From Fodinicola acaciae (GTDB lineage Bacteria; Actinomycetota; Actinomycetes; Mycobacteriales; HKI-0501), in NCBI RefSeq assembly GCF_010993745.1, contig NZ_WOTN01000004.1, positions 372,001-436,000 of the forward strand: a stretch of DNA of 64,000 bases, read 5' to 3'. The notes beneath the pieces are model-generated. The model was not told the DNA's origin and did not search any database. It was given only the letters and a program-made list of their open reading frames with translations. The stretch's first letter is position 1. Every line of letters starts with the position of its first letter. Both the position numbers and the translations under genes were made by a program. Below, piece after piece: positions 2,488 to 59,503 of the stretch.

Positions 2488-2493
2488 AGCACC
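2478..2493. terminator. Perfect 16-bp palindrome over two convergent stop codons
   Basis: GGTGCTTTAAAGCACC is fully self-complementary and contains both the rocD TAA (2485-2487) and the TAA of the opposing gene (2484-2486 on the minus strand). As RNA it forms a 5-bp stem with a TTTAAA loop. A bidirectional termination or RNA end-processing role is inferred; there is no long U-tract. Confidence 0.45.
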
Positions 2494-37638: not shown

Positions 37639-38627
37639 CAGTTCTGCGACTTTCCACTCGTCAGTCGTGCGAGGACGAGCGCGATCAGGATGATGACGCC
37701 GTAGATGGCCTGGTTCCACTGCGCGGAGACACCGGCGAGCACCAGGATGTTCTGGATCAGGCCGAGGACGATCACGCCGCACAGCGCGCCGAAAAGGGTG
37801 CCACGGCCGCCGTCGAGGCTGATGCCGCCGATGACCGCCGCCGCGAACACGGTGAAGATCATCCCGGAGCCCTGGTTGGCGGCGACCGAGCCGAGCCGGC
37901 CGGCGAGCATCAGACCGGCAAGTGCGGCAAGGAAACTCGCGACGACGAACGCGCCGAGCAGCACGCGGTCGGCGCGGATGCCGGCCGCACGAGCGGCGTC
38001 GACGTTTCCGCCGACGGCGTACAAAGAGCGTCCGCCGCGGAAGAATCCGAGCGTGATCATGCCGATGGCGAAGATGACCGCGCAGATCCAGATCGACGCG
38101 GGCATCCAGAGCCAGCTCGCCGAGCCGAGATAGAAAAACTCCGGCGGAGCGTTGAAAAGGCTTTTGCCGCCAGTGAAACCGATGACGCCACCACGCAGCA
38201 CGATCAGCATGCCAAGCGTCACGATGAACGCGTTGAGGCCACCGCGTACGACCAGGAGACCGTTGAGCAGTCCGACCAGCACGCCGACCAACAGGCAGAT
38301 CGGAATGGTCCAGATGCCCGGCAGTCCGAGATAGGTCGCCACCAGCAGGCCAAGCGCTGGTGCGAGGCCGATGGTCGACTCCAGCGACAGGTCGAACCGG
38401 CCGGCGATCAGCACGAGCGCTTCGGCCAGTACGAGCAACGAAAGCTCGGTCTGCTGCTGGAGGACGTTGATCAGGTTTTCCGGTGTCAGAAAGGTCGATG
38501 GCGACACGAGGACGCCGACGATCATCAGCACGAGAATGGCCGGCAGCAGTGCCAGGTCGCGCAACCGGCTGACCAACAGCGAGTTGGTCGCCCCGCGGAC
38601 CGGCGCCTGTTTAGCCAATGACGTCAC
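37638..38627 (-). CDS. CUT2 (ribose-type) sugar ABC permease
   Basis: A 329-residue permease with about ten membrane helices and family landmarks LVLIAGRFDLSLESTIGL and GSGMIFTVFAAAVIGGISLDGGRG. It transports monosaccharides. GTG 38627 has a GGAGGGGG ribosome site 3-6 bases upstream and overlaps the ATPase gene by 17 bases. It works with the ATPase and binding protein encoded upstream. Confidence 0.9.
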   Translation of the reverse strand: MTSLAKQAPVRGATNSLLVSRLRDLALLPAILVLMIVGVLVSPSTFLTPENLINVLQQQTELSLLVLAEALVLIAGRFDLSLESTIGLAPALGLLVATYLGLPGIWTIPICLLVGVLVGLLNGLLVVRGGLNAFIVTLGMLIVLRGGVIGFTGGKSLFNAPPEFFYLGSASWLWMPASIWICAVIFAIGMITLGFFRGGRSLYAVGGNVDAARAAGIRADRVLLGAFVVASFLAALAGLMLAGRLGSVAANQGSGMIFTVFAAAVIGGISLDGGRGTLFGALCGVIVLGLIQNILVLAGVSAQWNQAIYGVIILIALVLARLTSGKSQN

Positions 38628-40125
38628 TGACCCCCTCCATCCCGGCCACCAGGTCGGCGTCCTGCCAACCGCGTGCACGCTCGTCGGTGACCCGGCCGGC
38701 GAACATCACCAGCACCCGGTCGCAGCCGCGCAGGTCGTCCAGCTCGTCGGAAACGATCACGGCCGCTTTCCCAGCGGCTGCCGCGTCGTCGACCGCGGCG
38801 AGCAGAGTCTCCTTTGCGCGTACGTCCACCCCGGCCGTCGGCCCGATCAGCACGAGCACCTCGGGCTCGCTGGCCAGCGCCCGCGCCATCACGACTTTCT
38901 GTTGGTTGCCGCCGGAAAGACCGGTCAGCGGCAGGCCGACCGACGGCGTCTTGATGTCCAGCGACTCGATGGCCTGCCGCGCATGCTCCGCACGCGCTTT
39001 CGGCGAGACGAACCCGGCCGAGCCGAGCCGGTCCCAGATCGTCATCGTCACGTTTTCGGCCACCGACATGCCTGGCACGAAGCCGGTCGCACGCCTGTCC
39101 TCCGGCACGAAGCCGATGCCGGCCTTCAACGCGGCCGGCACGCTGCCGGGACGTACGCGTTTTCCGGCGGCTTCAACGGAACCGCCGGTCGGCGCCCGCA
39201 TGCCGGCCAGCGTTTCGGCCAGCTGGACGGCACCGCTGCCGGCCGCGCCGGCGATGCCGACGATTTCGCCTGGCGCGACGTCGAAAGACACGTCCGCGTA
39301 CGAGCCGGTCAGGCTCAGGTTTCGGACGGCCAGCGCCTTCGCGCCGGTTTTCCTTGCCGTTACGGCCGTACGCTCACCACGCAGGTGACCGGCACGCGAC
39401 GCGTCCGGACCGGTCATCGCGGCGACCAACGCGTCGGTGTCCAGCTCGTCGACCGGCGCGGTGATGACGTGCCTGGCATCGCGCAACACGGTCACGCGTT
39501 GGCACAGCTGGTAAATCTCCTCCAGGTGATGCGAGATGTAGCAGAAGGTCACGCCGCGTTCCTGCAGGCCGCGGATCTTGCCGAAGAGCCGCGCGATGCC
39601 GGCGCCGTCCAGCTGCGCGGTCGGCTCGTCCATGATGACAAAGCGCGCGCCGTGGCTGAGCGCGCGAGCGACCTCGACCATCTGCCGTTGTTCCACGGTC
39701 AGATCCGCGGCCAGCTGGCCTGGCTTGACGTCCACGTCGTACGACTCGAGCAGCTCGGCGGCACGTTTTCGCAGCCGCGGCCAGGAAATCGGGCCGTGGC
39801 CACTTTGCCTGTTGAGAAACAGGTTTTCCGCCACGCTGAGCGTGTTGATGATGGTCGAGTGCTGATAGACGCAGGCGACCCGGCGCCGCCAGCCGTCCCG
39901 GTCGGTCAGGCTCGGCGCCGGTTCTCCGTTGAACAGCACGGATCCGGCGTCCGCACCGGTCAGGCCGGTGAGCAGCGAGACCAGCGTGGACTTGCCGGCT
40001 CCGTTGCGGCCGACCAGGGCATGCGTCTCGCCGGTCGCGATGGACATCGACACGTCGTCCAGCGCGACCGTCGTACCGAAGCGCTTGGTGAGACCGCGCG
40101 CCTCGGCGATTATTGGTTGGCCCAC
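38611..40125 (-). CDS. CUT2 sugar ABC ATPase (RbsA/MglA-like, two ABC domains)
   Basis: A 504-residue protein with two ATP-binding domains. The first has Walker A GRNGAGKST and the degenerate signature LTVEQRQMVEVARAL; the second has the degenerate Walker A GAAGSGAVQ typical of this subfamily and the intact signature LSGGNQQKVVMARAL. GTG 40125 is the only plausible start and overlaps the binding-protein gene by 16 bases. It powers import of a monosaccharide. Confidence 0.92.
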   Translation of the reverse strand: MGQPIIAEARGLTKRFGTTVALDDVSMSIATGETHALVGRNGAGKSTLVSLLTGLTGADAGSVLFNGEPAPSLTDRDGWRRRVACVYQHSTIINTLSVAENLFLNRQSGHGPISWPRLRKRAAELLESYDVDVKPGQLAADLTVEQRQMVEVARALSHGARFVIMDEPTAQLDGAGIARLFGKIRGLQERGVTFCYISHHLEEIYQLCQRVTVLRDARHVITAPVDELDTDALVAAMTGPDASRAGHLRGERTAVTARKTGAKALAVRNLSLTGSYADVSFDVAPGEIVGIAGAAGSGAVQLAETLAGMRAPTGGSVEAAGKRVRPGSVPAALKAGIGFVPEDRRATGFVPGMSVAENVTMTIWDRLGSAGFVSPKARAEHARQAIESLDIKTPSVGLPLTGLSGGNQQKVVMARALASEPEVLVLIGPTAGVDVRAKETLLAAVDDAAAAGKAAVIVSDELDDLRGCDRVLVMFAGRVTDERARGWQDADLVAGMEGVSDVIG

Positions 40126-41150
40126 AGGCTCTTGTCCGTCGCGGCGACCGACTGGTAGGCGCCGATCTTCTCCGGCTTCACGGTCACCAGCGGCGCCGGC
40201 AGCTGGTCTTCCAGGCCGTTGGGCAGCTGGATGATGGTCGAGCCGTGATCGGTCGGCCCGGGCTTGAAAGTCTTGCCGGCAAGCGCGGCTTTCGCATAGA
40301 ACAGGCCGTAATACGCGTACGTGTCGGCCGGTTGCGAGACGGTGGCGTCGATGTCGCCGCTCTGGATGCCGGTCAGCTCCTGTTTGATGCCGTCGTTGGA
40401 GACGATCTGGATGTGGCCAGGCGTGCCGGCCTTCTTCAGCAGGCCTTTCTGTTTGAGCAAAGCGATCGTCGGTGCGAGGAAGACACCGCCGGCCTGCATG
40501 TAGATGCCCTGGATGTTGTTGTTGGTCTGGCTCAACACGGTCTGCAGGCCGGCGGAGGCCTTGTCGGCCTTCCACTCGGTCGGCACCGCGTGCACCACGA
40601 TCTTCGGATATTTGGCCTTCATGCAGCTGGCGAAGGCCTCCGACCGGTCACGGCCGTTGATGGAGGCCAGATCCCCCTGGAACTCCACGACGTTTCCGGC
40701 TCCGTGCAGCTTCTCGCCGAGATAGCTGCAGGCCTTTTCGCCGTATGCCTTGTTGTCGGCGCGTACGACCATGAAGACCTTGCCGGCGTCCGGCCGGGTG
40801 TCCACCGAGACGACCGGGATCTTCTTGGTGTCCAGCTGGTCCAAAGTGGACTTGATCGCGCCGGTGTCCTGCGGTGCCATCACGATCGCCTTGGCGCCGC
40901 GAGTGACCAGCGACTGCACGTTGGCGACCAGCGTGCCGATGTCGTTGTTGGAGTTGGTCGGCGGCAACAGTGTCACGCCGAGGCTGGATGCCTTCGCCGG
41001 CACGAAAGTGTTGTATGAGTTCCAGAAGTCGGAGTCCGATCGCGGGAAGTCGACGCCGATCTTCGCGCCACCGGCTCCGGACACGCCGCCACAACCGGTC
41101 AAGGCCAACGCCGTCACGGCGAGAAGGGTGACGACCCGCGATCGCTTCAT
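40110..41150 (-). CDS. CUT2 sugar-binding lipoprotein
   Basis: A 346-residue periplasmic-binding-protein type 4 member with a lipoprotein signal ending ALTGCGG (lipobox LTGC). The fold landmarks are IGVDFPRSDSDFWNSY, QSLVTRGAKAIVMAPQDTGAI and VSNDGIKQELTGIQSGDIDATVSQ. GGTGAGG precedes the ATG. It is the first gene of the importer-lactonase operon and has a CCTATAGG operator 21-34 bases upstream. Ligand is inferred to be L-fucose, D-arabinose or a related sugar. Confidence 0.9.
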   Translation of the reverse strand: MKRSRVVTLLAVTALALTGCGGVSGAGGAKIGVDFPRSDSDFWNSYNTFVPAKASSLGVTLLPPTNSNNDIGTLVANVQSLVTRGAKAIVMAPQDTGAIKSTLDQLDTKKIPVVSVDTRPDAGKVFMVVRADNKAYGEKACSYLGEKLHGAGNVVEFQGDLASINGRDRSEAFASCMKAKYPKIVVHAVPTEWKADKASAGLQTVLSQTNNNIQGIYMQAGGVFLAPTIALLKQKGLLKKAGTPGHIQIVSNDGIKQELTGIQSGDIDATVSQPADTYAYYGLFYAKAALAGKTFKPGPTDHGSTIIQLPNGLEDQLPAPLVTVKPEKIGAYQSVAATDKSLWANQ

Positions 41151-41170
41151 CGAGACCTCACCTAACCGAA

Positions 41171-41184
41171 GATCCTATAGGGTC
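41171..41184. promoter_or_regulatory. GntR-type operator, copy 1
   Basis: GATCCTATAGGGTC contains the palindromic core TCCTATAGG also seen at 42960. It lies between the aldo/keto reductase and the sugar-binding protein gene, 21 bases before the latter, and probably controls the importer operon through the GntR regulator at 42255. Confidence 0.55.
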
Positions 41185-41215
41185 GCTTCATCTTTCTGGT
41201 TGGCCGCTGGACCTG

Positions 41216-42199
41216 TCAAGACGGCTTGTGGGTTTCGTCGAGCAAACCCTCGGCGACCAGCTCGCTCCACAGCTCCGCCGGCACCTCCTGACCGTACATT
41301 TCGACACCATCGATCACCTCGGCCGCACTGCGCGCACCGAGCAATATCGTCGCCACTGCCGGATGAGAGGCGGCAAACCGCAATGCGGCAGCTTTTAGCG
41401 ATACACGATGGCGCGCGCAGACATCGCGCATCTTCAGGGCTTTGTCCACGATCGGCCGCGGAGCCACCCCGTAGTTGTAGAGCGCCTGGCCTTCCGGATC
41501 GGCGAGCACGCCGGAGTTGAAGACACCGCCGATCACCACGCTGACGCCGCGCTCGACGCAGGCCGGCAGCAGGTCGGCGGCACCGCTTTGGTCCAGCAGC
41601 GTCCAGCGACCGGCCAGCAGGACAGCGTCGATATCGGTCTCGCGGACGAACCGCGTCGGAATCCGCGACTGGTTCATGCCGACCCCGATCGCGCCGACGA
41701 CCCCCTGCTCGCGCAGCTCGTGCACGCGCGCGTACGCGCTGGTCAGCGCCTCCTCCTCGTGGTCGTCCGGATCGTGAAGGTAGACGATGTCGACCCGGTC
41801 GAGGCCAAGCCGCGCCAGGCTCTCCTCCAGGGAGCGCGAGATGCCGTCGGCGGAGAAGTCGAACTCCAGGTCGGCCGGCTCCGCGTCGGCGAAGATGCCT
41901 TTGGAGCCGCCTTCGCGCGGATGCACCAGCCGGCCGGCTTTCGTGGACAGCACGTACGATCCGCGGTCGATGCCGGCCAGCGCGACCCCGAGCCGCCGTT
42001 CGGACACTCCATGACCGTACTGAGGTGCGGTGTCCAGATAGCCGATGCCGGCGGACAATGCGGTGGAGACGACCGCACGAGCCTCGTCGTCGGCGACATG
42101 ACTGTAAAGGCCGCCGAGCGCGGCACAGCCGAGGCCCAGAGCGGTCACCGAAACGCCGCTGTGGCCAAGGTTGCGGCGCTCGCTGGCGAGATAGGTCAT
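41216..42199 (-). CDS. Aldo/keto reductase, L-fucose/D-arabinose 1-dehydrogenase type
   Basis: A 327-residue NAD(P)-dependent aldo/keto reductase. The tetrad is visible: Asp and Tyr in YLDTAPQYGHG, Lys in LSTKAGR and His in VYLHDPDD. It resembles the D-threo-aldose (L-fucose) 1-dehydrogenase group, which oxidises L-fucose and D-arabinose to lactones. A neighbouring lactonase and fuconate-type dehydratase support this. ATG 42199 is divergent from the GntR gene, 55 bases apart. Confidence 0.85.
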   Translation of the reverse strand: MTYLASERRNLGHSGVSVTALGLGCAALGGLYSHVADDEARAVVSTALSAGIGYLDTAPQYGHGVSERRLGVALAGIDRGSYVLSTKAGRLVHPREGGSKGIFADAEPADLEFDFSADGISRSLEESLARLGLDRVDIVYLHDPDDHEEEALTSAYARVHELREQGVVGAIGVGMNQSRIPTRFVRETDIDAVLLAGRWTLLDQSGAADLLPACVERGVSVVIGGVFNSGVLADPEGQALYNYGVAPRPIVDKALKMRDVCARHRVSLKAAALRFAASHPAVATILLGARSAAEVIDGVEMYGQEVPAELWSELVAEGLLDETHKPS

Positions 42200-42205
42200 G
42201 CTGAT

Positions 42206-42229
42206 CTCATTTCCTACATCGAATAGGCT
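42206..42229. promoter_or_regulatory. Possible weak GntR site between AKR and gntR
   Basis: TTTCCTA and ATAGG occur here separated by six bases, echoing the half-sites of the TTTCCTATAGGAAA operator but with a wider spacing. Its position in the shared promoter of the reductase and regulator genes is suggestive only. Confidence 0.25.
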
Positions 42230-42254
42230 GGATCTTTTCAGAAGGGGGTCGGTC

Positions 42255-42947
42255 ATGGCATCCGTCCCGGTGGATCGGCCCGCGGTGCGGTTGCCGCAGC
42301 GCAACGTGCTCTCCGACGACGTGTACGAGTCGGTGAAAGCGCTGATCATGGACCATGTCGTCGAGCCTGGCGCGCGGATGTCCATCGACGGCCTGGCGCG
42401 CGATCTGCAGGTCTCGCCGACACCGCTGCGCGAAGCGCTGGCGCGGCTGGAGTCCGACGGACTCGTGGTGAAGCAGCCGCTGCGCGGCTATCGCTCGACG
42501 CCACTGCTGACCACCGAGGAGCTGACCGCGCTCTATGACTTCCGGCTGCTGATCGAGCCGTGGGCCGCGGCGCAGGCGGCCGCACGAATCGACGACGCCG
42601 GCTCGGCGGCGCTGCAGGAGGAGATGGAGACCGGCGCACACGTGCCGGAGGGTGGCGACTACGAGACGTTCAAGTCGCTGACCCTGCACGACACCCGCTT
42701 CCACGACCTGGTCGCGCGGCTGTCCGGCAACGAGCCGCTGCGGCTCGCCCTGGAGCGCACCCACTGCCACCTGCACACCTTCCGGCTCTATTACTCCAGC
42801 GGCATCGGCTCGCAGGCGGTCGCCGAGCACCGCGCGGTGGTGAAGGCGATCGCCGGCGGCCGGCCGGAAGCGGCCGAGAAGGCCATGCGGCGCCACCTGG
42901 AGAAGGCGCTGCGCCGGCTCGTGGTGGCGACCACCGACGGCGAATAG
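42255..42947 (+). CDS. GntR/FCD-family transcriptional regulator of the sugar island
   Basis: A 230-residue regulator with an N-terminal GntR winged helix (VYESVKALIMDHVVEPGARMSIDGLARDLQVSPTPLREALARLESDGLV is the domain, residues about 22-70) and a C-terminal FCD domain with metal-binding histidines in HDTRFHDLV, EHRAVV and RHLEKAL. A run of five G residues lies 6 bases before the ATG. Its central place, and CCTATAGG sites before both neighbouring operons, make it the likely local repressor, released by a pathway sugar acid. Confidence 0.9.
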   Translation: MASVPVDRPAVRLPQRNVLSDDVYESVKALIMDHVVEPGARMSIDGLARDLQVSPTPLREALARLESDGLVVKQPLRGYRSTPLLTTEELTALYDFRLLIEPWAAAQAAARIDDAGSAALQEEMETGAHVPEGGDYETFKSLTLHDTRFHDLVARLSGNEPLRLALERTHCHLHTFRLYYSSGIGSQAVAEHRAVVKAIAGGRPEAAEKAMRRHLEKALRRLVVATTDGE

Positions 42948-42959
42948 CGTCACAGGAAG

Positions 42960-42973
42960 TTTCCTATAGGAAA
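42960..42973. promoter_or_regulatory. GntR-type operator, copy 2 (perfect palindrome)
   Basis: TTTCCTATAGGAAA is a perfect 14-bp palindrome located 12 bases after the gntR stop and 53 bases before the dehydratase start. It shares its core with the site at 41171 and is the best candidate binding site of the adjacent GntR protein. Confidence 0.65.
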
Positions 42974-43026
42974 TCCGAGCGGTTTGCTAGGGTCCTGAGT
43001 AAAGCCGGCTCTCGAGGGGACCTGCC

Positions 43027-44322
43027 ATGCCGCGGATAAATGCCATCACCGTCTCCGACGTACGGTTTCCGACGTCCAAGGAGCTGGACGGCTCGGATGC
43101 GATGAACCCGGATCCGGACTATTCCGCCGCATACCTGACGCTGCACACCGCGGACGGTCCGGTCGCGTACAGCATGGTGTTCACCATCGGCCGCGGCAAC
43201 GACGTGGTGGCCGCGGCCGTACGGTCATTGGCGCCGTACATTGTCGGCCGGGACGTCGACGACCTTTGCGGCGATCTCGGCGGTTTCTATCGGGAGCTGG
43301 TCTACGACTCGCAGCTTCGCTGGCTGGGCCCGGAAAAAGGCGTCATGCACATGGCGATCGGCTGTGTCGTGAACGCGGTCTGGGACCTGGCAACCCGCAG
43401 GGCCGGCAAGCCACTGTGGAAATATCTTTCCGACCTGACGCCGTACGAGCTGGTCGACCTGGTGGATTTCCGTTATCTCACCGACGCTCTCACCCGCGAC
43501 CAGGCGATCGACCTGCTCACCGCACAGCAGGCCGGCCGCTCCGAACGCGAGACTTTGTTACGCGCCAAGGGACATCCGGCGTACACGACCACCCCGGGTT
43601 GGCTCGGCTATTCCGACGAGAAGCTGGCCCGGCTGGCGCAACAGGCGGTCGAGGCCGGTTTCGGCCAGATCAAGCTGAAAGTCGGCGACAACCTCGACGA
43701 CGACAAGCGCCGGATGGCGTTGGCGCGCGAGGTGGTCGGCGACGACATCGGTGTGGCCACCGATGCCAACCAGCGCTGGGACGTGGCCGAGGCGATCGCC
43801 TGGATGAACGAGCTGCGCGACTTCCGGCCGGCCTGGATCGAGGAGCCAACCTCACCGGACGACGTCCTCGGCCACGCGGCGATCCGCCGTGGCGTGTCGC
43901 CGATCCCGGTCGCGACCGGTGAGCACGTACAGAATCGCGTTGTTTTCAAGCAACTCCTGCAGGCTTCGGCGCTCGACGTCGTACAGATCGACGCGTGCCG
44001 AGTCGGTGGCGTCAACGAAAACCTGGCGATTTTGCTGTTGGCGGCCAAATTTGGTACGCCGGTGTGTCCGCACGCCGGCGGCGTCGGCCTTTCCGAGCTG
44101 GTCCAGCACCTGGCGATGTTCGACTACGTGGCAGTGTCCGGCACGCACGCCGGGCGGCCGCTGGAGTGGGCCGACCACCTGCACGACCATTTCCAGGTGC
44201 CGGCGCGGATCAGCGGCGGCGCGTACGTGGCGCCGGACAGCCCCGGCATCGGTGCCGAGATGCATCCGGAGTCGGTGGCGCGGTTCAGTTTTCCGGACGG
44301 ACCCGAATGGAGGAGCTCGTGA
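43027..44322 (+). CDS. fucD: L-fuconate dehydratase (enolase superfamily)
   Basis: A 431-residue enolase-superfamily dehydratase. The family-specific segment [18 protein letters not shown], the KxK base motif IKLKVGDN, the metal ligands in [17 protein letters not shown] and ATGEHVQN, and the histidine in CPHAGGVGL match L-fuconate dehydratases. It converts L-fuconate to 2-keto-3-deoxy-L-fuconate; relatives can also take D-arabinonate. Length is as expected. It heads the plus-strand operon behind the perfect CCTATAGG palindrome. Confidence 0.9.
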
Positions 44323-48682: not shown

Positions 48683-50131
48683 ATGTACGACTTCGACCTG
48701 CTGGTGCTCGGATCCGGGCCGAGCGGCCAGAAGGCCGCGATCGCCGGCGCGAAGCTGGGCGGCCGGGTGGCCATTGTCGACCGGCGGCACATGGTCGGCG
48801 GCGTCTGCATCAACACCGGGACGATCCCGTCGAAAACCCTGCGCGAAGCGGTCCTCTATCTGACCGGCCTCAACCAGCGCGAGCTGTACGGCCAGAGCTA
48901 TCGCGTCAAGGAGGACATCACCTTCGGCGACCTGGCGGCGCGTACGCAGCACGTGGTGAGCCGCGAGGTCGACGTGATCCGCAGCCAGCTCGGCCGCAAC
49001 CGCGTCGCGCTGCTCACCGGCTCGGCGCGTTTCCTGGACGACCACACGATCGCGATCCGCAACGAGGACGGCTCCGACGAGCGGAAGGTGTCCGCCGACA
49101 AGATCGTCATCGCGGTGGGCACCAAACCGGCGCGTCCGTCCACTGTGGACTTCGACGGGCGTACGGTGGTGGACGCCGACCAGATCCTGCGGATCGACCG
49201 CATTCCGCGCTCGCTGGTGGTGGTCGGCGCCGGGGTGATCGGCATCGAGTACGCGTCGATGTTCGCCGCGCTCGGCTCGAAGGTGACGGTGGTGGAATCG
49301 CGCGAGCGGATGCTCGACTTCTGCGACCTGGAGGTCGTGGAAGCGCTGAAATATCACCTCCGCGACCTCGCGGTGACCTTCCGCTTCCGGGAAACCGTCG
49401 CTGCGGTGGAGCGCCACGAGGACATGACGCTGACCTTGTTGCAGAGCGGCAAGAAACTGCTCGCCGACACGGTGATGTATTCGGCCGGTCGGCAAGGTGT
49501 CACCGACGAGCTGCGCCTGGAAGCCGCCGGCCTGGAAGCCGACAACCGGGGCCGGATCAAGGTCGACGACAATTTCCAGACCACTGTGCCGCACATTTAC
49601 GCGGTCGGCGACGTCATCGGTTTTCCGGCGCTGGCGGCGACAAGCATGGAGCAGGGCCGGGTCGCCGTGCACCACGCCTTCGGTGAGCCGGTGGAACATC
49701 TGTCGCAGCTCTATCCGATCGGCATCTATTCGATCCCGGAGATCAGCTTCGTCGGCAAGACCGAGGACGAGCTGACCGAGTCGTCGATCCCGTTCGAGGT
49801 CGGCGTGGCGCGCTATCGCGAGCTGGCGCGTGGCGCGATCATCGGCGACTCCTACGGCATGCTGAAAATCCTGGTGTCCAACGAGGACCGCAAGCTGCTC
49901 GGCGTACACGTCTTCGGTACGAACGCCACCGAGCTCGTCCACATTGGACAGGCGGTGATGGGCTGCGGCGGCACGGTCGACTATCTCGTCAACGCGGTGT
50001 TCAACTATCCGACGCTGGCCGAGTCCTACAAGGTGGCGGCGCTGGACGTGCTCAACAAAATGCGTGCCGTGCAACGGATTTCCACGCCGGCCAAGCCGAA
50101 GAAGGCGGCGAAGAAAGCTCAGGAGGCATAG
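48683..50131 (+). CDS. sthA: Soluble pyridine nucleotide transhydrogenase
   Basis: A 482-residue flavoprotein of the disulfide reductase superfamily. It has the FAD motif [13 protein letters not shown], the NAD(P) motif [19 protein letters not shown] and the dimerisation domain, but at the redox site shows [15 protein letters not shown]: the usual CxxxxC pair is reduced to one cysteine, which is the signature of SthA rather than lipoamide dehydrogenase. It equilibrates NADPH and NADH. The lysine/alanine-rich tail [12 protein letters not shown] is an extension. Its end overlaps the opposing gene by 13 bases. Confidence 0.9.
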
Positions 50132-51255
50132 CCGCCGTACGGTTCCCACTGTCCTCGCGTCGGCGCGGATAGGGGCGCCGTGTAAGCCCACACCTCGGCG
50201 GTCGGCGTACGCACCAGGACCACCAGCGTGTCGGAACTGGACATGACAACCGTTGGCGTGCAGGCGATTCGGGTGGTCGCGATATTTGGCGGAGTGCCGA
50301 TCTGCGTCGGCGCACCACCGCCGGACCACAGCCACAGATGTCCGTTGAGGCCGCGAAACCACACCAGTCCGCCGACGATGGACGCGCCGGACGAAACGCG
50401 CGTGTCGAAAAACGGCTTCACCATCCCGGTGCTGGACGAGCCGTCCGCACAGATCTGCTGGCGATAGACCTTGGCATCGCCGTCTCCGCGGGTGGTGACG
50501 GCGGCGCAGCCGCGCGCGTCCCCGATCGGCATGGCGATCGGCGCCGCCGAGGTGGTCACGCCGGTCGCCAGCCAGTTCGCGTCCAGGTCGGCGGGCCGCA
50601 CCACCGCGTATTCCAGCTCGTCGGCTGATTTCCGTACGGTCACGAGAAGTTTGCCGCCGATCGCGGTGATCGACGGAGCCGACGTCGTCGGTCCGCCACC
50701 GAGCGAGGTCCAGTCCGTCCAAGTGCCGCCACTCGTCCATCGCAGCAGCACATCGCCAGTTTTCCCGCGCGCGGCAAGATAAACGTCGTTGCCGAGCGAG
50801 GTGGCCGAAGGCGACGACGTGACCGGCCCGTCGAGCGCGGTCCACACGCCGGATCCGGGCGTACGCACGTTGATCCGGCCATCCCTGCCGCGGGTCGCGA
50901 CCAGCAGCCCGTTCCGGGTCGCCGCACCGGCGACCCGCTGCGGCGAGATGTCGCCGAGGTTCGCCGGCGCCACGACCGGACCGGTGGCCAGCGCGGACGG
51001 CATCGGCGGCGGACTCTGGCGTGCGCTGGACAGCGGCGGCGCCGGCGTGCCGCGGCCGAGGCTCAGGCCGCCGACCGTGCCGAGTCCGATGGCCGCGAGT
51101 CCGACGACCGCCGCGACGCTGGCGATCAGCCGCCGGCGGCGTACGCGCCTGGTGCCGTCGGCGACCGCGCGGTTCACGTCGACCGCCGACGGCACCTCGG
51201 TGTCAGCGGCCACGCCGAGCAACCGCCGTGTTTCGTCCTCGTGTGGATCGGTCAT
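50119..51255 (-). CDS. Sigma-factor partner with external propeller-like domain
   Basis: A 378-residue protein: cytosolic head of about 42 residues ending in RRVRRRR, one membrane helix (about 44-66), a proline-serine linker and an external domain starting [22 protein letters not shown]. The external domain repeats short blocks of the kind [11 protein letters not shown] and APSITAIGG, suggesting a beta-propeller like the PLL/tachylectin-type lectins. The same domain makes up the two secreted proteins at 51909-53941. The ATG overlaps the sigma stop (ATGA). It is inferred to be a sensor that controls the sigma factor; no zinc anti-sigma motif is seen. Confidence 0.7.
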
Positions 51256-51749
51256 CGGGTGGCTCCCGCAGGTGGGTTCAACGCCGTCTTCAGCGCTTCC
51301 AACCCCCGTGCGGTCTGGCTTTTCACCGTGCCGGTCGAGCAGCCGAGCACGTCGGCCGCTTCCTGCACGGAAAGGTCGCCGAAGTATCGCAGGACGAGCA
51401 CCACTCGCTGCCCTTTCGGCACTTGACGCAAGGCGTTTCGGACCGCCAGCGCCTCGGCCGGATCGGCGGCCGCGTGCTCGGCCTCCGGCATCTGGTCCAG
51501 CAACCGTACGCTGGCCCATTTGCGCCGCCGGTCGTCGATGAAGACCCGATAGAGCATCCGGTGCACGTATCTGTCCAGGTTGTCGGCCTTGCTGGCGCGT
51601 TTCCAGTGGACGAACAGCCGGGTCAGCGTCTCCTGCAGCAGGTCGTCGCCACGAGCCGGATCGCCGGCGAGCAGGGTGGCGATCCGGCGCAGTCGCGGTG
51701 TGCTCGCGGTGACGTACTCGACGTAGGCGTCCCGCTCCTCCGTGCGCAC
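51252..51749 (-). CDS. SigE-family RNA polymerase sigma-70 factor
   Basis: A 165-residue ECF-like sigma factor. Region 2 has RIATLLAGDPARGDDLLQETLTRLF and MLYRVFIDDRRRKW; region 4 has VPKGQRVVLVLRYFGDLSVQEAADVLGCSTGTVKSQTARGL. GTG 51749 is preferred: it could be leaderless, with TTGGTC and TACAAC 18 bases apart and the latter 7 bases upstream. The alternative ATG 51812 would add a basic leader. It is coupled to the propeller-bearing membrane protein. Confidence 0.88.
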   Translation of the reverse strand: MRTEERDAYVEYVTASTPRLRRIATLLAGDPARGDDLLQETLTRLFVHWKRASKADNLDRYVHRMLYRVFIDDRRRKWASVRLLDQMPEAEHAAADPAEALAVRNALRQVPKGQRVVLVLRYFGDLSVQEAADVLGCSTGTVKSQTARGLEALKTALNPPAGATR

Positions 51750-51864
51750 GTCGACAGTTGTAACGCGACGGCGCGGTGGGGACCAAACCGCCGTAGTGGA
51801 CAGTACGGACATCCGCTGTCAGCTCGTCCCTGGCCGTACGCGCATCGCCGTCTCCTCCTCGCCT

Positions 51865-51878
51865 GTCATCCCGATGAC
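51865..51878. terminator. Small hairpin after the propeller genes
   Basis: GTCATC and GATGAC form a 6-bp stem around CC, 31 bases past the stop of the second propeller gene on its strand, overlapping a second possible stem TCCCG-ATGA-CGGGA. Confidence 0.3.
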
Positions 51879-51908
51879 GGGACTGGCCGGCGGATCGGTT
51901 GCACGAGG

Positions 51909-52940
51909 TCAGGTGGCGACGCCGCCGAGGCTGGTCCAGGTGCCACCGGTGTCGCCGGTGCCGACCTGGTCGGACGGCGGCTGATAGATCCAGGCACCGC
52001 CCTGGTCGTCGCGCACCAGCACGGTCAGCGGATCCATCGGAAAGATGTCCAGCGGCGGCATCCGATAGCCGGCGACGGTCGGCGTGCCGGCCAGTCGCCG
52101 TCCGTCCGCCGGCACGCCGACCCGCACGCCACTGGCCCACAGCGCGCCATCCGTGCCGCGATACCAGTACATGTTGTGACCGGCGTTGGAGCTGCCCGGT
52201 GTGTACGAGATGCCGGAGGCCGTGGTGTCGCTGACGGTCGGCCGCCAGTCTCCCCCGGGCGTGGTCAGGCACAGCGGACGTTCGACGCCGGTGCCGTTGG
52301 CCGTACGGGCCTGGACATACGCGACGTTCGGCAGGCCGAACGGAGTGGTGCACGCATGCGCGAGGCTCAGCATCGGCGCGGCGGTCGTGACCTGGCCGTC
52401 GACCGTCCGCCAGCCGGTCCAGGACGCTCCGTTGCTCGGTGGCAGCAGCGTCCCCGGCTTGAACAGTCGCACCTGGATCGTGCCGCTGGCGGTGAGCGCC
52501 GCGACCGCCAGATACGCATCCTCACCGTCACCGGCCTCCGGCGCCGCCTGCAACGACGGAGCGCCGTAGGTGGTGCCGCCGATGTTGTGCCAGGCCGTCC
52601 ACGCGCCGGTCGGCTCGCGCCAGCGCAGCAGCACGTTGCCGTTGCTCGCTCTGGCCGCGACGTAAACGCGACGATCCTCGTCGACGGCCGCCGCCGGCGA
52701 GCTTGCCACCTGCGTCCCCATCATCGCCCAGGCACTCTGCTGACCGGCCGGCGACACGAGCTTCTGATAGACATAGCCGGTCGTGCCGCGTACGAAAACG
52801 TGCAGTCCGTCGGCCGCGTACGCGCCGGCGACGCGCTGCGGTGAGATGTCGTACGGCGCCGCCTGCGCCGCCGTCGCGGCGCTCAGGATCCCCAGTGACA
52901 CTCCTGCCGCCGCGTAGATGATTCTTCGGAATAACCGCAT
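51909..52940 (-). CDS. Secreted propeller-like protein, paralogue 2
   Basis: A 343-residue exported protein with a signal peptide cut near residue 27 (AQAAPYD). The mature domain starts [24 protein letters not shown] and contains repeating strands such as VYVAARASNGNVLLRW, WTAWHNIGGTTYGAPS and WTSLGGVAT. Four or more cysteines occur in the second half. Repeat spacing of about 45-50 residues suggests 6-7 blades. GGCGGAGAA precedes the ATG. It follows paralogue 1 by 11 bases. Confidence 0.75.
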   Translation of the reverse strand: MRLFRRIIYAAAGVSLGILSAATAAQAAPYDISPQRVAGAYAADGLHVFVRGTTGYVYQKLVSPAGQQSAWAMMGTQVASSPAAAVDEDRRVYVAARASNGNVLLRWREPTGAWTAWHNIGGTTYGAPSLQAAPEAGDGEDAYLAVAALTASGTIQVRLFKPGTLLPPSNGASWTGWRTVDGQVTTAAPMLSLAHACTTPFGLPNVAYVQARTANGTGVERPLCLTTPGGDWRPTVSDTTASGISYTPGSSNAGHNMYWYRGTDGALWASGVRVGVPADGRRLAGTPTVAGYRMPPLDIFPMDPLTVLVRDDQGGAWIYQPPSDQVGTGDTGGTWTSLGGVAT

Positions 52941-52951
52941 TTCTCCGCCTC

Positions 52952-53941
52952 TCAGGTCGCGATGCCGCCGAGATTGGTCCAGGTGCCGCCGCTGCCGTCG
53001 CCGGCGGCCGGTGCGTAGAGCCAGCTGGTGCCGTTGTTGTCCCTGATCAGCAGCGAATCCGGATCGGTCTGCGGCTGCTCGAAAACCGGCACGCGATAAC
53101 CAGCGACCGACGGCGTACTGGCGATCCGGAGCTGGTCCTCCGGCACACCAACCTCGGAGTCGTTGGCCCACAGCGCGCCATTTGTGCCGCGATACCAGAC
53201 ACGTCCCCGGCCGTCGGCGTCGACGCCGGACGCGGTCGTGCCGACCGTCGGGCTCCAGGTGTCCGGCCGCCCGGCGCAGAAAAACCGGCTGATGCCGGTG
53301 CCGCCGGTCGAACGTCCTTGGAAATACGCGACATTGGGCGGCATGATGTCGTCAGGCGCCGGGCATGCCTTGCCGGCCGACAGCATCGGTGCCGCGCTGA
53401 GCACCTGGCTGTCCAGCGCGATCCATTGCGCGTACACCGGTGACGGCGGAGTCAGGCTGCCTGGCTGGAAAACGCGCAGCTGCGCGCGCCCGGCGCCGTC
53501 TCTGGCCGCGACCACGACGCTCGCCATCTGCTGTCCCTGGTCGGGAACAGCCTGCAACGCCGGCGCGCCGTACGTCGTGCCGCCGACGTTTTTCCAACCG
53601 GTCCAGCTGCCGTCCGGCTCACGCCAGCGATAGAGCACGGTGCCGTTCTGAGCCCGCGCGGCAACGTAAACCCGGCCGTCACTGTCCACTGTGGACGCTG
53701 GCGAGCTGGACAGCGGCGTGGTGTCGAGCACCTTCCACGGTGTTTGCTGACCAGTGGCCGTGACGACCTTTTCGTAGAGATAGTTGGTCGTGCCGCGGAC
53801 AAAGACGTGCAGTCCGTCCGATGCGTACGAGCCGGCGACCCGCTGCGGCGAGATATCGGTCGGCGCGGCCTGTGCCGGCCCGGCCGTCAATGCCAACGCG
53901 CCAGCCAAAACCGCCACACCGACGATTCGTCTTGTGTGCAA
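52952..53941 (-). CDS. Secreted propeller-like protein, paralogue 1
   Basis: A 329-residue exported protein, first gene of the propeller operon. TTG 53941 is the start since GGGAGGG lies 7 bases upstream; it gives the signal peptide HTRRIVGVAVLAGALAL ending AQAAPTD. The mature part begins [24 protein letters not shown] and repeats blocks like WTGWKNVGGTTYGAPA and WTNLGGIAT. It is closely related to paralogue 2 and to the external domain of the sigma partner. Lectin-type sugar binding is the leading guess from the blade pattern. Confidence 0.75.
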   Translation of the reverse strand: MHTRRIVGVAVLAGALALTAGPAQAAPTDISPQRVAGSYASDGLHVFVRGTTNYLYEKVVTATGQQTPWKVLDTTPLSSSPASTVDSDGRVYVAARAQNGTVLYRWREPDGSWTGWKNVGGTTYGAPALQAVPDQGQQMASVVVAARDGAGRAQLRVFQPGSLTPPSPVYAQWIALDSQVLSAAPMLSAGKACPAPDDIMPPNVAYFQGRSTGGTGISRFFCAGRPDTWSPTVGTTASGVDADGRGRVWYRGTNGALWANDSEVGVPEDQLRIASTPSVAGYRVPVFEQPQTDPDSLLIRDNNGTSWLYAPAAGDGSGGTWTNLGGIAT

Positions 53942-54030
53942 TGGACATCCCTCCCCGAAATGGCGGAGACCAGGTGGCCTCCACACCGTGAGGACGGGTC
54001 CGGTGACCGAAACCGTTGCACGCCGATCGG

Positions 54031-54624
54031 TCAGTCGAGGCGTACGACTCCGGCGAGGATCGCCAGCAGCAGGTCATCGAGCCGGACGCGGCCGCGGCCA
54101 AGCTTGGTCGCCAGCTCGTCGCAGGTCGTGAAGCTGGTGATCGCACCGACCGCGGCGACCGCCGTATCGACATCGAACGGCTGACGAAGTCGACTCTCTT
54201 CGGCGAGCCGCGTGACGAACAGCTCCACCTGGTCGAAGCGCCAACCTTCTCGACTGCTGACGACCTGGTGCGCCTCCGGATCGACAGCCGCCAGGCCGAT
54301 CAATCGGCGAAACAGATCGGGGTCCGTACGCCAGAAACGGCACAGCTCAGCGACCATGGCGCGGAAGGCCGCGACCGGGTTGTCCAACGCTGCCGCCGCA
54401 CGCACGCCGGTCACCAGGCCGGCGCGCTGTGACAGGTCTTCCGCGACCGCGTCGAGCAGACCGAGCTTGTTGCCGAACTTCCGGTAGATCGTCACTCGGG
54501 TGACCTCGGCGTCGGCAGCGACCTGCTCGAGGCTGAGGTTACGGAAGCCGGCCGCGATCAGCTGGCGCCGAGCGGCGACCAGGATGTTGGCTCTCGTCCG
54601 CTCGGCCGCGCGCGCTCGTTCCAC
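54031..54624 (-). CDS. TetR-family transcriptional regulator
   Basis: A 197-residue repressor with an N-terminal helix-turn-helix (ERTRANILVAARRQLIAAGFRNLSLEQVAADAEVTRVTIYRKFGNK lies at residues about 6-52) and a variable ligand domain. GTG 54624 is favoured because ATG 54669 would lie beyond the GATAC/GTATC repeats that look like its operator. It is divergent from the SDR gene and should regulate it and itself. The ligand is unknown. Confidence 0.85.
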   Translation of the reverse strand: MERARAAERTRANILVAARRQLIAAGFRNLSLEQVAADAEVTRVTIYRKFGNKLGLLDAVAEDLSQRAGLVTGVRAAAALDNPVAAFRAMVAELCRFWRTDPDLFRRLIGLAAVDPEAHQVVSSREGWRFDQVELFVTRLAEESRLRQPFDVDTAVAAVGAITSFTTCDELATKLGRGRVRLDDLLLAILAGVVRLD

Positions 54625-54633
54625 GGACCTGAT

Positions 54634-54657
54634 GATACAGCTCGTATCTTGTGATAC
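54634..54657. promoter_or_regulatory. TetR operator-like repeats
   Basis: GATAC (54634), GTATC (54644) and GATAC (54653) form alternating inverted repeats spaced 10 and 9 bases apart in the 43-bp gap between the divergent TetR and SDR genes. This is a typical position for a repressor site covering both promoters. Confidence 0.55.
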
Positions 54658-54667
54658 GACTTGTAAC

Positions 54668-55372
54668 ATGACATCGAATCCGGTGGCGCTGGTGACAGGT
54701 GCGAACAAGGGACTGGGGAAGGAGACCGCGCGACAGCTCGCCGAGCGGGGCGTGGTCGTCGTGCTCGGAAGCCGTGACCGTGAGCGCGGCGAGGAGGCGG
54801 CGCGCGAGCTGGCCGGGACGGTGGTCCCGATGCGGCTCGACGTGACCGACGCCGGCAGCGTACGGGAGGTCGCCGGCTGGCTGGAGGCCACCTACGGCCG
54901 GCTCGACATCCTGGTCAACAACGCCGGCGCGGTCGTCGACCAGCTGGCCGAGCGGACGACCGCGGCCGAGATGCGACAGACGTACGAGGTCAACGTCTTC
55001 GGCGTGGTCACGGTCGTGCACGCCATGTTGCCGCTGCTGAACAGGTCGGCCGAGCCGCGCGTCGTGAACGTCTCCAGCACGACCGCGTCGATGTCGCTGA
55101 CCAGCGGCGGCACCGACTTCGGCGGCGACGCCGGCCTGCGGATGGCCTATTCGTCGTCGAAGGCGGCGTTGAACATGCTCACGGTCCAGTACGCCAAGGC
55201 GCTGCCGCACATCAGGATCAACGCGGCAACGCCCGGCTACACGGCCACCGACATGACCCGGCACCGCGGCACGCGTACGGTCGCGGAAGGGGCGCGCGTC
55301 ATCGTCGACCTCGCGTTGACCGCCGACACCACCGGCGGTTTCTTCAACGACCGCGGCCGCGTGCCGTGGTGA
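54668..55372 (+). CDS. Short-chain dehydrogenase/reductase
   Basis: A 234-residue NAD(P)-dependent SDR with TGANKGLGKE (cofactor loop), NNAGA, serine in VSSTTASMS and YSSSKAALN. TGANKGLG matches the carbonyl-reductase-like SDR subgroup that prefers NADPH. The C-terminus is short (GGFFNDRGRVPW). ATG 54668 follows the operator repeats closely and may be leaderless. Substrate unknown; control by the divergent TetR is likely. Confidence 0.87.
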   Translation: MTSNPVALVTGANKGLGKETARQLAERGVVVVLGSRDRERGEEAARELAGTVVPMRLDVTDAGSVREVAGWLEATYGRLDILVNNAGAVVDQLAERTTAAEMRQTYEVNVFGVVTVVHAMLPLLNRSAEPRVVNVSSTTASMSLTSGGTDFGGDAGLRMAYSSSKAALNMLTVQYAKALPHIRINAATPGYTATDMTRHRGTRTVAEGARVIVDLALTADTTGGFFNDRGRVPW

Positions 55373-57308: not shown

Positions 57309-57477
57309 CGCGGCACAACAGAGGTTGGCTGTGAAACCGCGCTCAACCTCGGCGTACGTCCGCGCGTTGATACGTCAGAAGGCGCGACGCAATGGTCCTT
57401 GAGGCGGACGTTCAGACCGGAAAGGCGGGATATATCTGACGGTGACTGTGGCGGTGCGCCGGCCGAAGGCGGAGGCA

Positions 57478-57975
57478 ATGGGAGCTGTGACCGGACAGCC
57501 CTACGAGGCTTGCTTCCGCGATCTCTTCGCGCTCGCGTACCGGGTCGGATACCGCATCCTCGGTGACCGGAGCCAGGCCGAGGACGTGGCCGCCGAGGCG
57601 TGTGCCCGGGCGTACGCGCGCTGGCGGACCGTGAGCGCGCACGCGGAGCCGTGGGTCGCCAGGGTCGCCGGCAACCTCGCGGTCGACGAGGTGCGCCGGC
57701 GGGTCCGCTGGCGGCGCCGCGAGCCAGCCCTGCTGGAGCCGGACACCGGCGGCGACCCGCACCGCGTCGAGCGGCTGGACCTGCAGGAGGCGCTGCAGGC
57801 GCTGTCCAAGCGGCAGCGCGAGGTGCTGATCCTGCGATACGTCGCCGACCTGTCCGAGCGCGAGGTGTCCGAGCTGCTCGGCTGCTCCGTCGGCACGGTC
57901 AAGTCGACCGCCTCCAGAGCCGCCGCGCTCGTACGCGACAACCTGGCCGGAGGGGAGGTGCGTGACCGTGTCTGA
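57478..57975 (+). CDS. SigE-family RNA polymerase sigma-70 factor
   Basis: A sigma factor of about 165 residues. Region 2: FALAYRVGYRILGDRSQAEDVAAEACARAYARW; region 4: LSKRQREVLILRYVADLSEREVSELLGCSVGTVKSTASRAAA. The start may be ATG 57478, GTG 57487 or GTG 57442; AAGGCGGAGG lies before 57478. It overlaps the first membrane partner by 14 bases. Neighbouring genes are two paralogous membrane partners, an unusual one-to-two ratio. Confidence 0.87.
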   Translation: MGAVTGQPYEACFRDLFALAYRVGYRILGDRSQAEDVAAEACARAYARWRTVSAHAEPWVARVAGNLAVDEVRRRVRWRRREPALLEPDTGGDPHRVERLDLQEALQALSKRQREVLILRYVADLSEREVSELLGCSVGTVKSTASRAAALVRDNLAGGEVRDRV

Positions 57976-58723
57976 CCTGGACTTCAGCGGACTGGACGAC
58001 CCCGAGCCGCCGGTCGCCACCGACAGCCGGCTGGAGGCCGCGGTGACCCGCGGCCGCCAGTTGCGGCGCCGCCGCGGCGCGCTGACCGCCGGCGCGACCA
58101 TGGCGGCCGTCGTGCTGGTCGTCGCGCTGGCCGGTGTCGTCGGCCTGGTACGCACACACCTCGGGCCGACCGGCGGCGTGCCGGCGGCCGGCGGGACCAC
58201 CAACTCCACCGCGATCGCTCCGCCGACCGCGACACCGCTGCCCGATCCCTCGGCGCCGACCGCGACCCGGGACGTCAAGCTCAGCGAGGTGCTCAGCACC
58301 GACGGCGTGGGGCCGTACATGATCGGCACGCCGACCAAGCTGCTGCAGGCCGACGGCACGCTGCCCCTGCGGCCGGTGAGCGCGGCCTGTCCCAACGTGT
58401 ACGCGCCGACCGGCAAGCTCGACCCGGCGACGCTGCGGATCGTTGCGGAGCCACCGGGTTTCGTGGGGCTGGTCGAGGCCAAGGGCCTGGAATACGTGAC
58501 CCCCAGCGGCGCGTACGTCGGGATGCCGGAGGCTCGGCTGGCCGAGGTCTATGGCGCGCAGCTGCTGCCGGTCGCGAAGGTCGGCGCGAGCTACGCGTAC
58601 ACCGTCGGCACCGTCCATGTCGTCGGCTTCGTGGTCACCGACGGCCAGGTCAGCAACCTGCTGGCCGGCACCAAGCAGAGCGTGGTCGAGAAACTCAAGT
58701 CGGGGACCGTCTTCGACTGCTGA
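57962..58723 (+). CDS. Membrane partner of sigma factor, paralogue A
   Basis: A 253-residue protein with a cytosolic head of about 38 residues (SRLEAAVTRGRQLRRRRG), one membrane helix (about 42-63), a threonine/proline linker and an external domain of ~150 residues with two cysteines. GGAGGGGAGG precedes GTG 57962. It resembles the next gene product in every section (DDPEPPVAT / DDVEPPVAT; GxDPYLIG-like DGVGPYMIG). A role in controlling the sigma factor is inferred from overlap and topology. Confidence 0.7.
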   Translation: MTVSDLDFSGLDDPEPPVATDSRLEAAVTRGRQLRRRRGALTAGATMAAVVLVVALAGVVGLVRTHLGPTGGVPAAGGTTNSTAIAPPTATPLPDPSAPTATRDVKLSEVLSTDGVGPYMIGTPTKLLQADGTLPLRPVSAACPNVYAPTGKLDPATLRIVAEPPGFVGLVEAKGLEYVTPSGAYVGMPEARLAEVYGAQLLPVAKVGASYAYTVGTVHVVGFVVTDGQVSNLLAGTKQSVVEKLKSGTVFDC

Positions 58724-58739
58724 CCAGCGTTTGTTCGAC

Positions 58740-58761
58740 CGGTGCCGGCGGGCCGGCACCG
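58740..58761. terminator. 9-bp stem hairpin between the two partner genes
   Basis: CGGTGCCGG and CCGGCACCG form a perfect stem with a CGGG loop, 16 bases after the first partner gene and 31 bases before the second. It could reduce read-through or stabilise one mRNA segment. Confidence 0.5.
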
Positions 58762-58792
58762 TCCTTCGACATACCCGGAACGGAGGTGACCG

Positions 58793-59503
58793 GTGATCGA
58801 CCTCGACCTTCGCCATCTCGACGACGTCGAGCCGCCGGTCGCAACCGAGCAGCGGCTGGGTCTGTCGATGGTGCGCGGACGAGCGCTGCGGCGTAAGCAC
58901 CACCTGTTCGCGACGACCGCCGCGACCACCGCCGTGGTGCTGGTCATCGCGCTCGCCGGCGTGGTCGGCCTGATGCGACCGCACCTCGGCACCGCGATCG
59001 ACCCGGCCGGCGGCACCCCCACCAGTCAGGCAGGTCCACCGGACGCGTCACCGACCCCGCAGCCGTACGAGATCAACGCCGACGGCATCGATCCCTACCT
59101 GATCGGCGCCGACGCGGAGCCGCTGGCCAAGGCGGGGAAGCTGTCCACGCCGGCAGCCGTGTCGAAATGCCCGGCGACGTACGTGCCACTGGGGACGTAC
59201 AAGGGCGCGCCGCTGCGGATCGGTGTGTCCGACGGCCAGATCGCCATCGTGGTGGCCTCCGGCGAGGTCTTCCACACGCCGAACCACGCGATCGTCGGCA
59301 TGACCGAGGACGAGCTGAAGCGGACCATCGACGCGGCTCAGCTGGTGGCCGTGCCGACACCGCGCGACCAGGCATACACGATCGGCCGGTCCAACGTGAT
59401 GGCCTTCGTCTTCCTGAACGGCCGGATCACCCTGCTGGTGGCCGGCCCGAGGGGCCTGGTCACGCAGCTGCTGCAGACGGGTGCGCTGACCGCCTGCCGC
59501 TGA
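58793..59503 (+). CDS. Membrane partner of sigma factor, paralogue B
   Basis: A 236-residue paralogue of the preceding protein, sharing the head motif (LDDVEPPVATEQRL...RGRALRRKHH), the membrane helix (about 39-60), and an external domain including DGIDPYLIGADAEPL, SKCPATYVPLG and a C-terminal LLQTGALTACR. GGAGG lies 5 bases before GTG 58793. Tandem duplication of the partner implies either two signals or a changed specificity. Confidence 0.7.
   Translation: MIDLDLRHLDDVEPPVATEQRLGLSMVRGRALRRKHHLFATTAATTAVVLVIALAGVVGLMRPHLGTAIDPAGGTPTSQAGPPDASPTPQPYEINADGIDPYLIGADAEPLAKAGKLSTPAAVSKCPATYVPLGTYKGAPLRIGVSDGQIAIVVASGEVFHTPNHAIVGMTEDELKRTIDAAQLVAVPTPRDQAYTIGRSNVMAFVFLNGRITLLVAGPRGLVTQLLQTGALTACR

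Follow-up and report, generated by a model that had tools for sequence, protein, structure and literature searches.

We have analysed 64,000 nucleotides (nt) of the Fodinicola acaciae genome (contig NZ_WOTN01000004.1, positions 372,001 to 436,000), a stretch that we call the window, and we describe here a unit of four genes that occupies positions 53941 to 50119 on its minus strand. In the order of the unit, these genes encode two secreted beta-propeller proteins (A and B), a SigE-family extracytoplasmic function (ECF) sigma factor and a membrane partner (C) that carries a third propeller (Table 1). The genome comprises 8.86 Mb in four contigs, and F. acaciae GKU 173 has been described as a root endophyte (PMC7232338).

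A is followed by B after 11 nt and B by the sigma gene after 96 nt, while C and the end of the sigma gene have 4 nt (ATGA) in common. A first-pass annotation of the window, made from the sequence alone, had proposed three propeller genes, one of them coding for a membrane-anchored copy coupled to a SigE-type sigma factor. All four genes are present in their place and on their strand, the gene overlap bears out the pairing, and the coordinates confirm that the two secreted propellers lie upstream of the sigma gene in the same direction. Furthermore, A and B seem to be regulated together with the sigma gene, beyond their mere upstream position.

Table 1. Features of the propeller unit and of the nearby sugar-acid island (positions in the window)
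Feature	Position	Strand	Remarks
Promoter-like motif 1, TGCAAC-N18-CGTC	53993..54020	-	In the 89 nt between the TetR-type gene and A, upstream of A
Propeller A, secreted, six-bladed PLL-like beta-propeller	52952..53941	-	TTG start at 53941; mature part from DISPQ at 53857
Propeller B, secreted paralogue of A	51909..52940	-	ATG at 52940; 52% identical to A
Promoter-like motif 2, TGCAAC-N18-CGTC	51876..51903	-	In the gap between B and the sigma gene
SigE-family ECF sigma factor	51252..51812	-	ATG at 51812, alternative start GTG at 51749; TIGR02983 match
C, single-pass membrane partner: head, helix, Pro-rich linker, six-bladed PLL-like propeller	50119..51255	-	ATG at 51255
Sugar-acid island	36796-44322		L-fuconolactonase-like, enolase-family sugar-acid dehydratase-like, aldo/keto reductase, ABC sugar import, own GntR/FCD regulator

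The shared propeller domain

The external domain that A, B and C were supposed to have in common is borne out by the sequences. The three propeller domains all start with DISPQRVAG and match each other, C being 29% identical to A (BLASTP E 8e-22), and in A and B the domain is preceded by a hydrophobic, signal-peptide-like segment that ends before DISPQ (read by eye). When A was searched in its own genome, matches over the domain came from A itself, B and C, and only weak, short ones from three further places; a profile search added one more partial match (C3:1518306). No Pfam family passed its cut-off for any of the three proteins; DUF346 is matched below threshold by A (E 0.03) and by neither B nor C at E up to 1.

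The structure predictions gave a beta-propeller, as the first-pass annotation had expected. The AlphaFold model of A has a predicted local distance difference test score (pLDDT) of 85.2 and a predicted template modelling score (pTM) of 0.87, and its strands, grouped by eye here and in C, fall into six blades of about four; the model of full-length C (pLDDT 73.0, pTM 0.69) is confident in the propeller part, which is again six-bladed. Six sequence repeats match the six modelled blades, and the six blades of B rest on these repeats, the folds having been predicted for A and C.

The likeness to PLL-type lectins was also confirmed, as the closest solved sequence relatives of the domain are the lectins of Photorhabdus (PLL, PLL2-5 and PHL), which resemble A, B and C both in blade sequence and in fold. 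A matches them with a phmmer E of 1.6e-23 and C alone with an E of 3e-5, and a profile of the domain reaches PLL2 at 1.2e-30 and PHL at 5.1e-30, with all eight distinct solved sequences that it matches at E up to 0.01 being PLL/PHL lectins. The model of A is furthermore matched to PLL3 by Foldseek at E 1.2e-12. However, the likeness does not extend to the full architecture, because the PLL lectins have seven blades (PMC6943638, PMC5584973) and the models of A and C have six. In structural superposition, where rows less than 1 Z apart were counted as ties, the best partners of A and C are six-bladed fucose lectins (AFL, AOL, AAL, RSL and SapL1). In the case of A, AFL gave Z 24.8 (3.2 Å over 267 residues) against 22.8 for PLL4 (3.5 Å over 259 residues), and in the case of C, Z 25.2 (2.9 Å over 261 residues) against 23.8. 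Identity to the six-bladed lectins on superposition is 6-13%, and none of the five is found among the sequence matches to solved structures (phmmer; profile at E up to 0.01). We read the A/B/C domain, as modelled, as a probable PLL-type domain with one blade fewer.

Sigma factor, membrane partner and sibling pairs

The sigma factor matches TIGR02983 with 150.7 bits, above the cut-off of 141.55, and contains Sigma70 regions 2 and 4 in a Pfam scan. Its partner C begins with an Arg-rich cytosolic head of 42 residues, followed directly after RRVRRRR by the only hydrophobic stretch of the protein (residues 43-61), then by a Pro-rich linker and by DISPQRVAG and the propeller from residue 102. No NCBIfam model matched C at E up to 1, and an RsgI N-terminal domain was not found in it by Pfam or NCBIfam at the same threshold. 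Zinc-type class I anti-sigma factors (ZAS) are characterized by a His/Cys zinc motif and class II (CnrY-like) heads by two short helices. The head of C contains no Cys, which sets it apart from the ZAS type, and it is shorter than the class I anti-sigma domains (ASDI), for which a length filter of at least 50 residues has been used, shorter heads being linked to possible class II factors (PMC7406223). Its length agrees with the class II limit of under 50 residues, and AlphaFold places short helices at residues 7-12 and 27-32, both at pLDDT under 50 only.

C belongs to a numerous group of similar proteins. The genome contains 94 sigma-region-2 matches and 75 matches to TIGR02983 at E up to 1e-10, eight of them above the cut-off. 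Among the best 30 of these 75, a single-pass partner is the next gene in 26, including all eight above the cut-off; the pair analyses leave out the other four (L039, L046, L049 and L051), where a partner of this kind is missing. The partners resemble C in build, with about 36-50 residues of head, whose end is usually Arg-rich, a hydrophobic segment (above the hydropathy threshold in 25 of the 26, L026 being below it) and an outer part, and the chosen partner start overlaps the sigma stop by 4 nt in 17 pairs. Where they differ from C is the ectodomain, which is of the BNR/Asp-box type in 15 of the 26 (Pfam, E up to 0.01). Head similarity follows sigma similarity over the 26 pairs (Mantel r 0.56, p 0.0002), a correlation that joint inheritance could also explain. 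Among the other 25 sigma factors, L034 (47% identical) and L030 (44%) come closest to that of the unit; the head region is the only part over which their partners align significantly with C, and these partners show no Pfam family at E up to 0.01. The ectodomain thus looks like a swappable sensor on a conserved head.

The secreted copies distinguish the propeller unit from its siblings. Besides the unit itself, extra ectodomain matches within 1.5 kb were found at four of the 26 loci; those at L033, L040 and L041 are neighbouring sigma-partner pairs and that at L043 is a tandem partner with its own head (by reading). No headless ectodomain copy was therefore found within 1.5 kb of the other 25 pairs.

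Some of the other pairs deserve mention in their own right. Within the window, 57442-59503 (plus strand) comprises a SigE-type sigma gene and, behind it, two single-pass partners in tandem (57962-58723 and 58793-59503) whose heads are alike and which match no Pfam family at E up to 1e-5, which may mean two sensors for one sigma factor, and a third SigE-type pair of the window (L027, above the TIGR02983 cut-off) lies at 2484-4084 on the minus strand and has a different ectodomain. Elsewhere in the genome, four SigE-type sigma genes (L033, L041, L040 and L031) are arranged in tandem on one strand within about 6.3 kb (G000:C1:2265805-2272087), each with its own BNR/Asp-box-repeat partner. In the partner of the sigma gene L032 (G000:C3:1591532-1591993), a YkuD L,D-transpeptidase domain and a bacterial Ig domain, both above the Pfam cut-off, place a cell-wall enzyme fold in the sensor position.

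Promoter-like motif and conservation

The motif TGCAAC-N18-CGTC was noticed by eye in two gaps of the unit and then looked for in Fodinicola feengrottensis (HKI 0501), where it is present before A (L023:6158) and before B, again with N18. Its two blocks resemble the -35 and -10 elements of ECF promoters. The four operon sites, once aligned, agree fully in both blocks and at a few positions between them. Counting both strands, there are 11 exact matches in either genome, and from the genome counts about 1e-4 matches would be expected in the 185 nt of the two gaps of the window. As 2 of the 11 fall in this operon in each genome, the motif points to one sigma-driven unit, and it suggests, at the level of sequence, a link between the secreted propellers and the sigma gene.

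A regulon beyond the operon was considered and no further target is claimed, since the totals of 11 compare with 11 (F. acaciae) and 5 (F. feengrottensis) matches for the reversed pattern. The other nine matches were inspected in each genome. One pair of sites (L070/L089) is identical in sequence in both species and lies inside a coding frame of the other strand, and the sites at L074 and L086 are similar in sequence but precede different genes. The L086 site (F. feengrottensis, G001:C26:96177-96204) ends in CCCGTC shortly before the start of an apparent small secreted protein, which could be a target, at a frequency expected by chance.

All four genes are found in the same order in F. feengrottensis, where the sigma factor is 73% identical and C about 50% (readable part). 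In this draft (L023, C86), A, B and C contain frame breaks and the sigma frame shifts near its end; because the completeness of the draft is estimated at 74%, sequencing error is a more likely cause than decay. The neighbourhood is partly shared by the two species (by reading): downstream, the convergent pyridine-nucleotide oxidoreductase gene and a peptidase gene beyond it, and upstream, an acyl-CoA dehydrogenase gene and the next SigE-type pair. The immediate upstream neighbour in F. acaciae, a TetR-type gene ending at 54031, and the adjoining dehydrogenase gene (together 54031-55372) have no counterpart that we could see at the F. feengrottensis locus.

Outside the genus, the four-gene unit was not found in any of our order, phylum, class and species searches. 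C was searched in 298 genomes of the order, and three matched, namely the two Fodinicola and one with a weak match to a different protein; among 396 genomes of the phylum, only that of the window matched. A profile search of 394 genomes of the class matched 11: that of the window and ten in which the match was partial and covered about two blades at most. No sigma gene was found at the loci of those ten genomes or at L022 and L068 (1.5-kb flanks) with a sigma model built from the 26 paralogues, which recovered three of three positive controls. In these order, phylum and class searches few candidates were scored per genome, so misses are possible. Finally, a scan of 84,980 species with two short motifs, which may leave out the window's own genome, matched 13 stretches, one of which encoded a relative, that of F. 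feengrottensis. The first-pass annotation thus withstood the two checks that it had named: the models show a propeller, and sigma and propeller genes co-occur in a second species, as far as searched within the genus only.

The proteins of seven of the ten genomes with partial matches, read by eye, resemble enzymes carrying PLL-like blades. Across L055, L057, L058, L060, L061, L063, L064 and L022, all from other actinomycetes, such blades occur on apparent secreted enzymes, as if they were binding modules, and the enzyme types include, by eye, GH27-like, deacetylase-like, metalloprotease-like and tyrosinase-like proteins.

These data bear on the possibility that sigma gene and C, on one side, and A and B, on the other, are neighbours without any regulatory link, A and B being ordinary secreted adhesins and C having gained its propeller from them by a gene fusion. 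Domain sharing between neighbours can arise by local duplication, and the confinement of the unit to one genus in our searches means that its conservation covers little time. However, the spaced motif is found at two places of the operon in either species (before A and the sigma gene in F. acaciae, before A and B in F. feengrottensis), when a whole genome has only 11 matches, and the gene order is kept in F. feengrottensis as well, so that we consider this explanation very improbable.

The fucose-type island reported beside the unit is real in outline (Table 1). In a scan of ten proteins around it, the best name within the island was L-fuconolactonase, whose cut-off is 400 bits and which was matched with 209.8. 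All 11 motif matches of the genome lie outside the island, whose linkage to the propeller unit is kept in F. feengrottensis. As other neighbours are kept too, this linkage says little and was not counted as evidence, and we have rejected a fucose link between unit and island.

Ligand and proposed circuit

The fucose site of PHL is formed by Thr194, Trp199 and Trp214 (PMC5584973). In the alignment we mapped these positions to a Thr, to a Trp that stands seven residues beyond the Arg of the strand and to another Trp ahead of the LGG-type turn, and we tallied them blade by blade using anchors chosen by eye. Both Trp are present in blade 6 only, one blade in six, in A, B and C alike, and N, D or P replaces the Thr there. 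The Trp of the W..LGG type is kept in five of the six blades of A and B and in four of C. In A and B, blade 1 carries Thr, Tyr and Trp and blade 5 Thr plus one Trp; blade 5 of C carries one Trp only. The first Trp is absent from the other blades. We predict from these residues one conserved pocket at blade 6, common to the three proteins, and glycan binding by them is plausible; the fucose specificity suggested by the first-pass annotation is not supported by them, with both Trp kept in a single blade and its Thr missing.

This pattern could also mean that the propeller of C is degenerate, has lost its lectin activity and serves to sense something other than a glycan (envelope stress, a peptide or another protein), with A and B likewise as non-lectin scaffolds. 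The restriction of both Trp to a blade without Thr would fit such a role, the BNR/Asp-box ectodomains of 15 of the 26 sibling partners are not lectin-like, and the authors of the PLL3 work say that hydrophobic pockets of this kind may take non-carbohydrate ligands (PMC6943638). On the other hand, both blade 6 Trp are invariant in A, B and C, every solved sequence matched by the profile is a PLL/PHL lectin, and PHL crystals soaked with methyl fucoside had only two of the seven possible fucose sites filled (PMC5584973), which indicates that few intact pockets can suffice. We regard a non-glycan cue as unlikely.

Our preferred reading is that the four genes form one self-regulated signalling unit, and we hold the chances for and against it to be about equal. 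C would be a membrane-bound anti-sigma sensor whose short cytosolic head would hold the SigE-type sigma factor, and whose outer propeller would bind an extracellular ligand, most likely a glycan, through its PLL-like blades. Binding of the ligand would free the sigma factor, which would then transcribe its own operon from the two TGCAAC-N18-CGTC sites, leading to more A and B. Outside the cell, A and B would bind the same or a related ligand and so serve as output, in adhesion or ligand capture, and they may also act as a brake on the sensor, because they would compete with C for the ligand; a titrating or feedback role of this kind would follow from the layout. The first-pass annotation had likewise seen a signalling unit with a sensor and soluble copies, and the propeller fold, the sigma pairing, the second species and the shared motif are in its favour, while its fucose component is not among the supported points.

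The first-pass annotation had also raised the possibility of direct binding between the copies. In that case A and B would contact the ectodomain of C, propeller to propeller, as soluble ligands or decoys, and the cell would sense its own secreted lectin nearby. The three proteins are paralogues in one unit, and PLL and PHL lectins form tetramers and dimers (PMC6943638, PMC5584973); however, C is only about 30% identical to A and PLL3 is a monomer (PMC6943638), and we find direct contact quite unlikely, less so than an absence of any regulatory link and more so than a non-glycan cue.

Several observations weigh against the self-regulated unit that we prefer. No known anti-sigma domain was detected in the head of C, the whole protein having no Pfam match at E up to 1, and in the AlphaFold model residues 1-103 stay below a pLDDT of 50, which leaves the head without confident structure. 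The fucose-site Trp are mostly lost in A, B and C, and three residues of A and B, Thr and Tyr in blade 1 and Thr in blade 5, are missing from C, so that C and A/B may not share a ligand. With regard to the motif, F. feengrottensis has no match directly before the sigma gene, unlike the window. As the motif was noticed by eye, it draws its weight from its presence in the second species and from its frequency across the genomes, and two congeners are not fully independent evidence. In addition, the shorter form AAC-N18-CGTC was observed before 4 of the 30 sigma genes, including that of the unit, compared with a mean of 0.75 and a maximum of 5 in 60 shuffles, and with this weak enrichment we have rejected it as a general SigE promoter.

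Among described systems, the nearest working analogy is SigI/RsgI of Clostridium thermocellum, where the sigma gene likewise comes with a partner, an anti-sigma factor that has a segment in the membrane and a carbohydrate-binding module outside it, and where this anti-sigma factor controls enzymes for the same kind of polymer. In the case of RsgI6, the sensor module is 57% identical to Xyn10D, and the cognate sigma factor recognises the predicted Xyn10D promoter (PMC4711584). The two systems differ in the sigma family, in the length of the head (about 165 residues in RsgI, 42 in C) and in the sensor modules, which are CBM3, PA14, GH10 or of unknown type in RsgI proteins and not propellers; moreover, no secreted lectin genes in the sigma operon are described in the accounts consulted. 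ECF52 (SCO4117) of Streptomyces coelicolor also has a sigma-linked extracellular carbohydrate-binding domain (PMC8999054, PMC5826349), but sigma factor, zinc finger and sensor are fused there in one protein, and secreted sensor copies are not mentioned in the accounts consulted. With respect to the PLL lectins, the Fodinicola proteins differ not only in blade number and in the single blade with both fucose-site Trp, but also in that one of the three is anchored in the membrane and paired with a sigma gene. The literature, judged by titles and the beginnings of abstracts, yielded no anti-sigma partner tipped with a propeller or a lectin, which does not prove that none has been published. Two points are new in our reading, namely that a SigE-type sigma factor has a PLL-like propeller for its sensor, and that the same unit holds this sensor in two further, secreted copies.

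We would extend this to the whole genome only tentatively, and with less confidence than we have in the unit itself. F. acaciae may hold a large and largely undescribed family of sigma-linked one-helix receptors. Their short anti-sigma heads of about 40 residues would co-vary with the sigma factors, and their outer domains would be exchanged without restraint, for the most part among propeller types; in the unit described here the ectodomain would also be released as two secreted copies under the same motif, acting as soluble co-receptors or decoys with feedback.

If the proposed circuit is true, the unit would be a compact example of one sigma-controlled operon that senses and secretes with the same lectin-like fold, and the feedback loop that it offers could be tested. 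SigE-type sigma factors with short-headed partners that carry exchangeable, often propeller-type sensors also seem to form a numerous class, and such pairs are a plausible answer to what many of the 94 sigma-region-2 matches of this genome listen to.

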